From positions 1,990,858 to 2,054,857 of the forward strand of contig CP017950.1 of the NCBI GenBank assembly GCA_002838205.1: a stretch of DNA of 64,000 bases, written 5' to 3'. The notes under the pieces were generated by a model that saw only the letters and a program-made list of their open reading frames with translations, ran no database searches and was not told where the DNA came from. Below, in pieces: positions 1 through 43,868 of this stretch (positions are counted from its first letter, which is position 1; each line of letters opens with the position of its first letter). The stretch is from Tenericutes bacterium MZ-XQ. Lineage in GTDB: Bacteria > Bacillota_I > Bacilli_A > Acholeplasmatales > Acholeplasmataceae. Made by a program: the position numbers and the translations under genes.

Positions 1-927
1 ATACATTTTGATATGGTTTCAACGGCTAATATTTCAAAACGTAGTGAAAACTATCAAATGAATGTAACTTACATTATGATCGGTGGTTTACAAGATTATC
101 AAACCATTGACATTTTTATTGGAGGATCAACCGAGAACATCCCTCAAGCTATGTATACGATTAGAGGACAAATCAAAGCTGATGGCTCGGATTTATTAAT
201 GGGTCTTCCTTTATTAAGCTTTTTTGGAGCTCCAGTGAATCCAGAAAGTGTCCCTACAGACGAGATTTATCAATTGTTATCTACAGGATTCGATAATTTT
301 AATATTACAGCAGAAACAACTGTTGCAGATTTGCTTGCGCAAGTAAGACTTTATGATAGTGAAAATAGTCTTGTAAAAAATGGTAGAAAAGTTATTGGTC
401 TTACAGGAAAATGGGGTGGTGGAACATTCCACGAACAGCTCATGGCACTTGAGTCTTATATCGTGAGTGAAGCTCTAACTCTAGAAGAACTTTATACATT
501 TTTAACTGAAACGAATCAAGCTGATGATCAACAAAGGGATACCATTGCATGAGCGACTATGATGTTTGAACCAAAAATGATAAAAATTGTCGCTAAAGCA
601 GCTGGTATTGATTTATGGAACGGAGAACCTACAGTTGTAGATGCCAAAGTTGAAAACTCGAATCACATCATCACTGTGCGTATCATGGGTTATCATGAAA
701 TGCTGATTGAAGTAGAACTTTCTACTGAAAAGGAACTGATTAATCTTACGGTTTTAGAACATACAGAAACTGCAGGATTCGGCAAAGACGTTATTGAAGG
801 AGATTACATATCTCAACTCATTAGTGCTGATGACTTAGACCAAGTTCAAATAATCGCCGGATCTACAAAAACCTCTAATGCACTTGTTGATGCAATAAAA
901 ACAGCAATTCAATATCTTAACGATTAA
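1..927 (+). pseudogene. Tandem FMN-binding-domain (flavinylated) protein, 5' partial, split by an in-frame TGA
   Basis: Two open stretches (before 550 and 559-927) lie in the same frame, separated only by TGA at 550-552. Read through, the junction is D-T-I-A-[stop]-A-T, which is the flavinylation signature (S/A)-G-A-T with the Gly codon GGA changed to TGA by one base. The second part ends with a second FMN_bind domain carrying I-A-G-S-T-K-T-S-N-A-L, an NqrC/RnfG-like site where ApbE attaches FMN to the Thr. The protein therefore had at least two covalent-FMN domains, as in extracytoplasmic flavoproteins used for electron transfer. The reading frame is open to the window edge, so any signal peptide lies outside. 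As it stands the first domain is truncated just before its FMN-accepting Thr. A sequencing error or readthrough is possible; TGA is a normal stop elsewhere in the window. Confidence 0.8.
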
Positions 928-40071: not shown

Positions 40072-41154
40072 TTAACTAAAGTTATCAAATAAAATGTTGT
40101 CATCTTTCATATCATGTTTCTTTAATACATTAATACATGCTTTAATCATACCTGGTGAACCACATAGATAACCTTCTACATCACTTAAATCTTTGGTATG
40201 ACGATCAACAACATCAGTAATTAAACCAACATCTCCATCCCACTCATCTTCTGGAAGTGGTTCTGAAAGTGCTGGAATATACTGAAAGTTTGGAAACTCT
40301 TTTTCAAGCGCTCTAAACTCTTCTGTATAATATAAATCACGCTTCGATCGAGCTCCAAAGAAGTACTTAACTTTACGATGCATACCTCTAGCTTGAAGTG
40401 CATATAAAATCGATCTGATCGGTGCCTTTCCAGATCCACCAGCAATACAAATCATATCTTTATTTGAGTCTTCCCTTAAGAAAAAGTCTCCGTAAGGCCC
40501 TGTAATGATGATTTTATCGCCTACTTCCATAGCTTTATGAACAAATGTTGTTGCTTGTCCATTTGGAACTAAACGGATGATAAGTTCAATTTCACTCTTA
40601 TTTTTTGGATCAGATGCAATTGAATAAGCTCTGATCACTTCAATCCCAGGCACTTGAATTTGCACATATTGTCCAGGTTTAAAATCCATCTCTTTTGGTT
40701 CAATTAATTTAAATCTAACCAGTTTAATATCATAAGTTAAATCAGAAACATGCGATACAACTGTCTTATACTCCTTAGCGTTTAACAAACCTTTAGGTAA
40801 TAATATTTTCATATCACTCTTTACTTTTACTTGACAAGAAAGTCTCACGCCTTCTTCTCTTTCTTCTTCGCTAATAAATGGTTCTTCTGTTGGTTTTAAA
40901 TGTCCATCTCCACCAACTAATTTAAACTTACATAAGCCACATGTTGCTTTACCGCCACATGCAGATGGGATAAATATTTTCTCGCTTGATAATGTATTTA
41001 AAACTGTGTCATCACCTTTAACAGGTATTTTAGTTTCATCGTTGATTGTGATGACTTTTTCACCACCACCACCTAGTAATTTTTCAACTAAAATAAGAAC
41101 TAAAGAGATGACAATTAATACACTAACTAAAACAATAGGTAATACCCAATTCAT
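40072..41154 (-). CDS. nqrF: NqrF-like NADH:acceptor oxidoreductase (2Fe-2S, FAD)
   Basis: A 360-residue protein. It has an N-terminal transmembrane helix (residues 3-25), a plant-type ferredoxin domain with SACGGKATCGLC and a later LSCQV (four 2Fe-2S cysteines), then an FNR-type FAD domain (RAYSIAS) and NADH domain (GGSGKAPIRSIL, near-terminal YLCGSPGMI). It oxidises NADH on the cytosolic face and feeds electrons into the membrane subunits. Last gene of the five-gene operon. It is about 45 residues shorter than Vibrio NqrF, but the cofactor motifs are complete. Confidence 0.93.
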   Translation of the reverse strand: MNWVLPIVLVSVLIVISLVLILVEKLLGGGGEKVITINDETKIPVKGDDTVLNTLSSEKIFIPSACGGKATCGLCKFKLVGGDGHLKPTEEPFISEEEREEGVRLSCQVKVKSDMKILLPKGLLNAKEYKTVVSHVSDLTYDIKLVRFKLIEPKEMDFKPGQYVQIQVPGIEVIRAYSIASDPKNKSEIELIIRLVPNGQATTFVHKAMEVGDKIIITGPYGDFFLREDSNKDMICIAGGSGKAPIRSILYALQARGMHRKVKYFFGARSKRDLYYTEEFRALEKEFPNFQYIPALSEPLPEDEWDGDVGLITDVVDRHTKDLSDVEGYLCGSPGMIKACINVLKKHDMKDDNILFDNFS

Positions 41155-41169
41155 AACATCTCCTCCTTC

Positions 41170-41742
41170 TTATACTAATCCTGTAAAGCCCATAAATGCT
41201 AATGCTAAGATACCTAAGATAATAAATACGATTGCTTTTCCTCTTAATCCTTTAGGTGGATTAGAAATCTTCGCAAGCTTTTCTCTTAAACCTGCAACTA
41301 AAATAATCGCGATCATCCAACCAACACCAGATCCAAATGAAAAGGATACAGTTTCTAAAAATGTATAATCTCTATTGACGAAAAACAATGAAACTGCTAA
41401 TACAACACAGTTTACTGTGATCAGTGGTAAGAAAATCCCAAATGCATTATATAATCTTGGTGAAAATTTTTCTAAGAATATCTCTAGCAATTGTACAACA
41501 GCTGCAATTGTGATAATAAACACGATTAAACTGATAAATTCAGTATTTGTAGCAAGTAACAATTGATAAATCGGATAATTGATAACAGCAGTAATAGTCA
41601 CAACAAATACAACTGCAATTCCCATCCCTTTAGCATTTTTAACACTCGTAGAGATTGCAATCAAAGGACACATACCCAAAATGAAAACAAGTGCAATATT
41701 ATTATTTAATATTGACGATATAAATAGTTCAATAATATTCAT
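41170..41742 (-). CDS. nqrE: NqrE/RnfA-like membrane subunit
   Basis: A 190-residue integral membrane subunit with about six helices. The two intramembrane cysteines that hold the 2Fe-2S cluster with NqrD are present in FILGMCPLIAIS and LPLITVNCVVLAVS. The order nqrB-C-D-E-F supports NqrE rather than RnfA. AGGAGGG precedes the ATG. Confidence 0.9.
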   Translation of the reverse strand: MNIIELFISSILNNNIALVFILGMCPLIAISTSVKNAKGMGIAVVFVVTITAVINYPIYQLLLATNTEFISLIVFIITIAAVVQLLEIFLEKFSPRLYNAFGIFLPLITVNCVVLAVSLFFVNRDYTFLETVSFSFGSGVGWMIAIILVAGLREKLAKISNPPKGLRGKAIVFIILGILALAFMGFTGLV

Positions 41743-41755
41743 TTTCTATGCCCTC

Positions 41756-42382
41756 CTATATATTTGTTTCGTAATTCTTGGTCATTACTCTAATGCCCCA
41801 TATCATAAGTCCTAATACAAAGAACCCACCTGGAGCCATTGTCATTGCAACCCAGTTAATCCAATCTGGTCCAACAACACGAGTACCTAAGAAAGTACCA
41901 AATGCTAATATTTCACGAACAGACGCAACAGCTACTAAAACAAGTGCATAACCTAGACCACTTGCTGCTCCATCAATTAAAGAATATTTAACTGGGTTTT
42001 TAGCAGCAAAAGCTTCAGCACGTCCCATAACAATACAGTTTGTAATAATTAGTCCAACATATGCATCAAGTGAATCTGCAATTTGTGGAAAATATGATTG
42101 CAAAAATAACTGTACGATAATAACAAATGTAGAAATAATAACCATGTAAGTTACCATTCTTACTTTTCCAGGAATAAAGTTTCTAATCAAAGAAACCGTT
42201 GCAGAACTTGCCATCACAACAAATGTAACACCTAAACCCATAGCTATTGCGTTTTCTACACGATTTGAAACTGCTAACGCAGAACAAATCCCTAAAACAG
42301 CTATAGCAATTGGATTGCTTGTCGCAACACCATCTTTAAAAATGTTAAACCATTTCTTATACTTAATTCTAATTAATTTCAT
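41756..42382 (-). CDS. nqrD: NqrD/RnfE-like membrane subunit
   Basis: A 208-residue membrane subunit with about six helices. The cluster-binding cysteines appear in AVLGICSALAVSNRVENA and GLIITNCIVMGRAEAFA. It forms an inverted pair with NqrE that carries electrons across the membrane. GGGGGATG precedes the ATG. Confidence 0.9.
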   Translation of the reverse strand: MKLIRIKYKKWFNIFKDGVATSNPIAIAVLGICSALAVSNRVENAIAMGLGVTFVVMASSATVSLIRNFIPGKVRMVTYMVIISTFVIIVQLFLQSYFPQIADSLDAYVGLIITNCIVMGRAEAFAAKNPVKYSLIDGAASGLGYALVLVAVASVREILAFGTFLGTRVVGPDWINWVAMTMAPGGFFVLGLMIWGIRVMTKNYETNI

Positions 42383-42394
42383 TTAATCATCCCC

Positions 42395-42976
42395 CTACTC
42401 ATTAAGTGCTTGCCATGCAGCACTATACTCATCATAGTTGTCATTGAGGATGCCTTCAAATGCATTTGAAGTACCAGTAGCACCAGTAATTGCATCGACT
42501 TGATTCGGTTCTGTTGCACCTTCTTTAGTCACATCAATCGAAGGCGTCATTTTAACACCAACATAATTATCTAAATACGGTCTTTCAGCAACCACACCAC
42601 CTAAACCAGGCGTTTCTTCTTGTTCCAATATCGTAATACGAACAATCGTTTCAAAATCAGAGTCTAAAGTTAATATACCAATGATAGGTCCCCATAATCC
42701 GCTACCCTCGAAGCGATAAGCAACAGAACCTGTCTGATCATTTACATAGAATGTGTAGCCATCTTCTTCTAAAATAGTTACCTCATCATCGAAAACATCA
42801 TGGATATTTGTGAAGTTATACTCAATTTCAAATCCGTCTAGTATCGCTGATTTCAATTTAGCTTCCTTGTTTAGTTCAATACGATCTTCTGTCAATGCAT
42901 TAGCACCTAACAATAGTGCACTTGTTACTAAACCTAAAATTACGACAAATATCATCATTTTAAGATTTTGATTCAT
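42395..42976 (-). CDS. nqrC: NqrC/RnfG-like flavoprotein subunit
   Basis: A 193-residue subunit with one N-terminal membrane helix and an external FMN_bind domain. The covalent FMN site is TGATGTS in QVDAITGATGTSNAF (about residue 165). The conserved EQEETPGLGG precedes it. The start is at 42976 with AAGGTG upstream, overlapping nqrB by 17 bp; the longer frame from 43009 is unlikely. It requires ApbE for flavinylation; no apbE gene lies in this window. Confidence 0.92.
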   Translation of the reverse strand: MNQNLKMMIFVVILGLVTSALLLGANALTEDRIELNKEAKLKSAILDGFEIEYNFTNIHDVFDDEVTILEEDGYTFYVNDQTGSVAYRFEGSGLWGPIIGILTLDSDFETIVRITILEQEETPGLGGVVAERPYLDNYVGVKMTPSIDVTKEGATEPNQVDAITGATGTSNAFEGILNDNYDEYSAAWQALNE

Positions 42977-43868
42977 CAGTTGCACCTTCTTTCTTTTCGA
43001 TTCTAGCAAAAAACATACTATCGATTAATGGTGCTACCGCACTCATTAATATAATTGCAAACATAGTTCCATCAGGGAATGTTGCAAAGAATCTAATTAA
43101 AACTGTTAAAAAAGCAATCCCAATACCAAATAACACACGACCCCAAGGAAATAGAGGGGCTGTTGTTTCATCGGTTGCGATAAAAAATGAGACTAAGACC
43201 AAATTCCCAACAAATAAACTATTAAATGCACTATCAGGAAAACCATCAAATCCGAACCATACACCTAACTGAGTAAAAACAAATACACCTAGTAAAATGG
43301 TCAGTGGGATTTTCCAATCAATCACTTTAAGACCAATTAAAACAAGTCCCAAAATAATGATTCCTAATCTCAAAGTCTCACCCAAAGCTCCGGGTGCATC
43401 ACCTAAAAGCATTTGCATCAATGTATAATCTGTGCCTACCTGATTTGCTCTAACAAGCATTGTAGGGAAATATGCCGGAAATGAAATCGTTATAAATAAA
43501 AGTCCAACAAGTGCCGGATTAAAAACATATTTACCACTTCCCCCAAAAATACCTTTTCCAAAAAACGTTCCAAATGCAGAACCTACTGCAACCATCCAAA
43601 CATGCTTTAATTCTAATGTTGATGGTATGAGCAGTGTAAGTAATAATGGATAAATCATCCATGCGCCGTCAAATTCGATTTTTCTACCTTTAGAAAACAT
43701 CAATTCTACTAGAAGTGCAGTTACAAGTGAAACTGCAGCAACCACCAAGACTTGATAACCGAATATGATCGTAGACGCAAGCACTAAAACCGATAAAGCA
43801 ATCGTCATGATTGTCAGGTTTCTTTTATCGAGTGCCTTCTTAATCACTGAGTCATAGGATAATGTCAT
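42960..43868 (-). CDS. nqrB: NqrB/RnfD-like membrane subunit
   Basis: A 302-residue membrane protein with about nine helices. Conserved stretches include FGKGIFGGSGKYVFNPALVGLLF, LLGDAPGALGETLRL and FFIATDETTAPLFPWGRV. In Nqr and Rnf this subunit normally carries an FMN on a Thr in an S-G-A-T-type motif; at the equivalent place (NQVGTDYTLMQMLLGDAPG) no such motif is visible. It is at the short end of the family (RnfD-like length). First gene of the operon: the upstream 150 bp contain no nqrA or rnfC. Confidence 0.88.
   Translation of the reverse strand: MTLSYDSVIKKALDKRNLTIMTIALSVLVLASTIIFGYQVLVVAAVSLVTALLVELMFSKGRKIEFDGAWMIYPLLLTLLIPSTLELKHVWMVAVGSAFGTFFGKGIFGGSGKYVFNPALVGLLFITISFPAYFPTMLVRANQVGTDYTLMQMLLGDAPGALGETLRLGIIILGLVLIGLKVIDWKIPLTILLGVFVFTQLGVWFGFDGFPDSAFNSLFVGNLVLVSFFIATDETTAPLFPWGRVLFGIGIAFLTVLIRFFATFPDGTMFAIILMSAVAPLIDSMFFARIEKKEGATDESKS

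Follow-up and report, generated by a model that had tools for sequence, protein, structure and literature searches.

Gene content of the operon

The window (the whole stretch of DNA analyzed here, 64,000 nucleotides) lies in the genome of a wall-less bacterium of the Acholeplasmatales; this genome of 2,157,199 bases is a single contig with 99.98% completeness. On the minus strand, positions 43868–40072 contain five intact open reading frames in the order NqrB-NqrC-NqrD-NqrE-NqrF (Table 1). Neighboring genes overlap or are separated by gaps of 11–15 bp, and all five products were identified by both Pfam and NCBIfam. These results confirmed the claim of an earlier sequence-only reading that five tightly linked Nqr genes are present. 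If translation of NqrC starts at the second methionine, the protein has 193 aa. NqrF scored narrowly over the TIGR01941 cut-off of 295 bits, matched the solved Vibrio cholerae NqrF at 1e-64, and carries 2Fe-2S, FAD, and NAD signatures. The dN/dS of the operon genes within the genus, NqrB included, was 0.03–0.18.

Table 1. Features of the nqr operon, in window positions.
Feature	Position	Strand	Evidence
NqrB-like membrane subunit, 302 aa	42960..43868	-	PF03116 (NQR2_RnfD) 1.6e-63; AlphaFold model; residue table
NqrB WMIYPLL, Tyr at the riboflavin-ligand Thr162 position	43641..43661	-	Residue table
NqrB SGKYVFNPAL, Tyr at the riboflavin-ligand Asn200 position, Asn203 kept	43509..43538	-	Residue table
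NqrB deletion site, PTMLVRANQ / VGTDYT junction	43422..43466	-	Alignments
NqrC, extracytosolic FMN subunit, 204 aa as listed	42395..43009	-	PF04205 (FMN_bind) 1.5e-16
NqrC covalent-FMN motif DAITGAT	42476..42496	-	Motif reading and alignments
NqrD, two of the four Cys for the intramembrane 2Fe-2S (GICS, TNCI)	41756..42382	-	PF02508 (Rnf-Nqr) 2.2e-58
NqrE, the other two of the four Cys of the intramembrane 2Fe-2S (GMCP, VNCV)	41170..41742	-	PF02508 (Rnf-Nqr) 5.5e-54
NqrF, NADH-oxidizing subunit: one TM helix, 2Fe-2S, FAD, NAD	40072..41154	-	TIGR01941 296.7 bits; PDB match

About 400 bp upstream of the operon contain no gene, in agreement with the earlier description of this DNA as non-coding. 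Rfam gave chance-level matches only in the upstream DNA, and scans for promoters and terminators did not outperform shuffled sequences.

Redox sites of the outward arm

In Na+-NQR, electrons move outward via NqrF, the 2Fe-2S cluster of NqrD/E, and the NqrC-bound FMN, then come back via the FMN and riboflavin of NqrB to quinone (PMC9325719, PMC10643135). The outward part is intact in the window: the NADH, FAD, and 2Fe-2S sites of NqrF, the 2Fe-2S ligands of NqrD/E, and the FMN motif of NqrC were all found. The cluster cysteines of NqrD and NqrE were kept in 39/39 NqrA-less operons. The NqrC core [ST]G[AG]T was likewise present in 39/39, with the leading Asp absent in one, and the NqrF cluster site was present in 38/39; the exception is an NqrF split across two open reading frames.

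Flavin sites of NqrB

The riboflavin ligands of V. cholerae NqrB are Thr162, Asn200, Asn203, and Asp346 (PMC9325719, PMC10643135). At the deletion site, canonical NqrB and RnfD carry the motif D..[ST]GAT, which includes the Thr that bears FMN. In NqrB of the window genus, the whole covalent-FMN loop is deleted, and two of the four riboflavin ligands are replaced (T162Y and N200Y). The other two riboflavin ligands, Asn203 and Asp346, are retained, and NqrB may still bind flavin non-covalently. As controls, the FMN Thr and the four riboflavin positions were all kept in 24/24 RnfD sequences of the same order, and canonical NqrB kept these flavin positions in 16/16. Alignment error as the source of the degenerate motifs was rejected: the loop was gone in all four window-genus genomes aligned, and RnfD in the same run kept all positions.

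The strict FMN motif of NqrB was found in 52/52 canonical sequences versus 7/39 NqrA-less ones. In the NqrA-less group, Thr or Ser occupied the FMN attachment position in 26/39, and the loop was absent in 7/39. The motif required at least seven changes on a tree constructed without NqrB. The site decayed repeatedly within one NqrA-less clade and not universally in it. The N-terminal RnfC-docking motif was present in 23 of 24 RnfD sequences versus none of the 38 NqrA-less NqrB sequences. The RnfD model gave the window NqrB a higher score (165 bits) than did the NqrB models (118–137 bits).

The dN/dS of NqrB within the genus was 0.10–0.16, and its AlphaFold model (mean pLDDT 79) aligned with solved NqrB and RnfD at TM 0.78–0.81. 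NqrB is therefore maintained under purifying selection with its predicted fold kept, and pseudogenization was rejected by the dN/dS. Loss of the flavin sites, which the sequence-only reading does not mention, is stronger evidence than the absence of NqrA, and the evidence for a probable loss of the inward return arm is new here.

NqrA, quinones, and candidate acceptors

No NqrA was found in the operon or its own genome, and none of 61 relatives had one over the cut-off, consistent with the earlier claim that NqrA is lacking. This absence on its own carries little weight as evidence, because in V. cholerae NqrA is free of cofactors and the quinone site is on NqrB (PMC12174285, PMC10643135). A UbiA-family prenyltransferase over the cut-off was found in 0/61 genomes of the order, with controls at 14/14; synthesis of its own menaquinone or ubiquinone is therefore unlikely. 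The absence of UbiA may still be compatible with scavenged quinones. In a related Acholeplasmataceae isolate, quinones were not detectable (PMC11122141). Cytochrome bd is absent from this genome. The sequence-only reading had named an nqrA gene elsewhere in the genome together with a quinone pathway as the observation that would speak against it; the search for both was negative, with neither NqrA nor UbiA over the cut-off.

No dedicated acceptor gene adjoins the operon. Two other FMN_bind proteins of this genome are acceptor candidates, and neither adjoins the operon. At window positions 1–927 (the gene begins before the window; L148:8577-9785), a lipoprotein-like gene adjoins a gene for a 122-aa FMN_bind protein with no evident signal peptide; the pair is possibly an NqrC partner or a split gene. 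A transposase-like gene pair, IS3-like by eye, lies at 1014–2584 on the minus strand of the window. A membrane-anchored 129-aa FMN_bind protein with the motif DYVSGAT (L147:7724-8113) is a candidate electron acceptor. Its neighbors, judged by eye, are a MarR-like regulator and a flavodoxin-like protein.

Rnf in the same genome and in relatives

A complete Rnf operon with apbE was found at genome positions 188231–196762, separate from the nqr operon. RnfB and RnfC, described earlier as missing, are indeed absent from the nqr operon; at the genome level the description does not hold. Because apbE is present in this Rnf operon, a flavin transferase for NqrC is available. The Rnf operon (L043) has a homologous core in common with the window operon and differs from it in having RnfC, short RnfB pieces, apbE, and an RnfD with its flavin positions kept. 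At L043:11889-12421, RnfB is encoded by two small open reading frames of 71 and 106 aa; both show a four-cysteine cluster pattern, and the usual polyferredoxin part is absent.

In related genera whose Rnf operon has no RnfB, the cluster cysteines of RnfA/RnfE are also gone, and RnfC, RnfD, and RnfG stay. Where RnfB is present, all four RnfA/RnfE cysteines stay. Judged from its retained subunits, the RnfB-less Rnf is the putative complementary half of the Nqr half-machine. Operons without RnfB and the RnfA/RnfE cysteines occur at L149:6417-11767, L150, L209-L214, L220, and L222; they keep copies of RnfC, RnfD, and RnfG together with apbE. At L062 (G094), a second nqrBCDE-like set is preceded by an RnfC-like protein, and the contig ends past the E-like gene.

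Distribution of NqrA-less operons

Operons of the same five genes lacking nqrA also occur elsewhere in the order and in further orders of its class, and a close NqrF was found in 36 of 296 sampled genomes. The gene order in the loci read was B-C-D-E-F. The closest named relative with the operon is 'Tenericutes bacterium MO-XQ', with an NqrF 98% identical; the next relatives are labeled Acholeplasmataceae. In the NqrD+E+F tree, all NqrA-less operons formed one clade against NqrA-containing operons, with a support of 100/100. This clade takes in the operon of one Tissierellia bacterium (L068), the single locus that represents the state outside Bacilli. The NqrB FMN motif is kept at L068, whereas it is deleted in the window genus.

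Several relatives have an NqrC of 531–847 aa with extra FMN_bind-like repeats, and this long NqrC requires two changes on the tree. The Acholeplasma-type NqrC has up to four FMN motifs, about 155 residues apart. By analogy with known multi-flavinylated proteins (PMC10339131), the long NqrC looks like a flavin wire fused to the outside electron-receiving subunit. This design counts in favor of the outward electron path proposed below.

Two genomes from a single genus have, after cydA and cydB, a gene for an NqrB-like/FMN_bind fusion and then a cysteine-free RnfE-like gene. At L200 the contig runs on via an RnfA-like gene directly into nqrBCDEF, and at L201 it ends within rnfE. The insert is absent from the nqrBCDEF locus of a third species in this genus. 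CydA of this genus is about 115–120 residues short at the quinol-binding Q-loop of Escherichia coli bd-I/bd-II. The simplest inference is that this oxidase would be fed by flavins, not by quinol.

Proposed function and alternative explanations

The product of the operon is probably an NADH:extracytosolic-flavin oxidoreductase that works in one direction only and descends from Rnf/Nqr, its return arm having been lost. NADH would reduce the FAD of NqrF, and electrons would then pass to the 2Fe-2S of NqrF, the intramembrane 2Fe-2S of NqrD/E, and the covalent FMN of NqrC outside. Reduced NqrC could deliver them to another extracytosolic acceptor; candidates include a further FMN protein, O2, metals, and free flavins. 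NqrB would be kept as a membrane partner that perhaps docks NqrC or provides a path for ions. We infer the direction of electron flow from what was observed, namely the gene content, the intact outward-arm sites, the eroded flavin sites of NqrB, and the absence of NqrA and UbiA. If electrons moved outward with no accompanying cations, the membrane potential would fall; therefore, coupled export of Na+ or H+ is a plausible candidate activity. The F-type c subunit of this genome has a Q...AETTGLY pattern, which we take to be of the Na+ type. Na+-type ATPases have been reported for acholeplasmas (PMC4221730).

One alternative, considered unlikely, is that the complex is an ordinary Na+-pumping NADH:quinone reductase that can do without NqrA and uses quinone from the environment and a non-covalent flavin in NqrB. 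It would agree with the cofactor-free nature of NqrA and the quinone site on NqrB in V. cholerae (PMC12174285, PMC10643135), with the Asn203 and Asp346 kept in the window genus, and with the operon that adjoins cytochrome bd in one genus. However, the FMN loop is deleted and two riboflavin ligands are replaced, the order has no UbiA and this genome no bd oxidase, and the operon-adjoining oxidase of the other genus is itself without the Q-loop. A decaying Nqr remnant on its way out, with no defined function, was considered very unlikely. The repeated erosion of NqrB flavin sites and the absence of the operon from small-genome family members would fit decay, but the five genes are intact, their dN/dS within the genus is low also for NqrB, and NqrF, NqrD, NqrE, and NqrC have conserved redox sites over 39 operons.

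A third reading involves the Rnf of the same genome alongside the Nqr operon and is about as improbable as the quinone reductase. It draws on the complete Rnf and ApbE in this genome and on the Rnf of related genera, which lost RnfB and the RnfA/E cysteines and retains RnfC, RnfD, and RnfG. Against it, NADH in and NAD out would form a futile loop, the Rnf of this genome retains its own input arm, and the remodeled Rnf occurs without Nqr in some genomes. The best-supported reading is that electrons from NADH pass outward to a flavoprotein or some other acceptor, not to quinone, given the absence of NqrA and UbiA and the lost flavin sites of NqrB. The earlier interpretation is thus supported in part, for outward transfer to a non-quinone acceptor; its statement that Rnf subunits are missing does not hold at the genome level.

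Comparison with known systems

The operon shares the redox sites of NqrF, NqrD/E, and NqrC and the NqrB fold with Na+-NQR of the V. cholerae type, but it has no NqrA, no NqrB FMN site, and two replaced riboflavin ligands. Compared with Na+-NQR, NqrB is shorter by about 80 aa and NqrF by about 50 aa. The nqrBCDEF set without NqrA was published earlier for Clostridium ultunense, Pseudothermotoga lettingae, and P. thermarum (PMC5924567), so that the gene set itself is not new. Those operons are like the window in gene set, order, lack of NqrA, and an Rnf alongside, and their authors likewise proposed a non-quinone acceptor (PMC5924567); no report on their NqrB flavin sites was found in that paper. 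The 'NQR/RNF-like' systems (Meheust 2021, PMC8238504; Huang 2024, PMC11334425) were also proposed to pass electrons one way from NAD(P)H to outside FMN, and their membrane subunit has no flavinylation site, as in the window NqrB. In these systems, an NqrB-like membrane domain is fused to an NqrF-like NAD domain and the path runs via the NqrB-like part (PMC8238504, PMC11334425), whereas the window has five separate subunits, no NqrB-NqrF fusion, and a path via NqrD/E.

The membrane NADH oxidase of Acholeplasma laidlawii, from 1981 biochemistry, is said to be a copper-containing FMN iron-sulfur enzyme with subunits of about 65, 40, and 19 kDa. In the probable A. laidlawii genome, the predicted masses are 72 kDa for NqrC, 40 kDa for NqrF, and 21 kDa for NqrE. 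The masses are alike, but the copper is not accounted for by the operon; the likeness is a lead only.

It is possible, at rather less than an even chance, that Rnf/Nqr of Acholeplasmatales was split into one-way half-complexes for a quinone-free, flavin-wired respiration: Nqr would keep F-D/E-C, the Rnf of some genera would keep C-D-G, and the Nqr of one genus would feed a Q-loop-less cytochrome bd via the NqrB-FMN fusion. In the proposed function, an out-and-back membrane redox pump would be reduced to its outward half, with a paralogue in the same genome as a control. Such a natural half-complex would allow a test of which arm powers ion pumping, and it provides candidate genes for respiration-like NADH oxidation in quinone-free bacteria.
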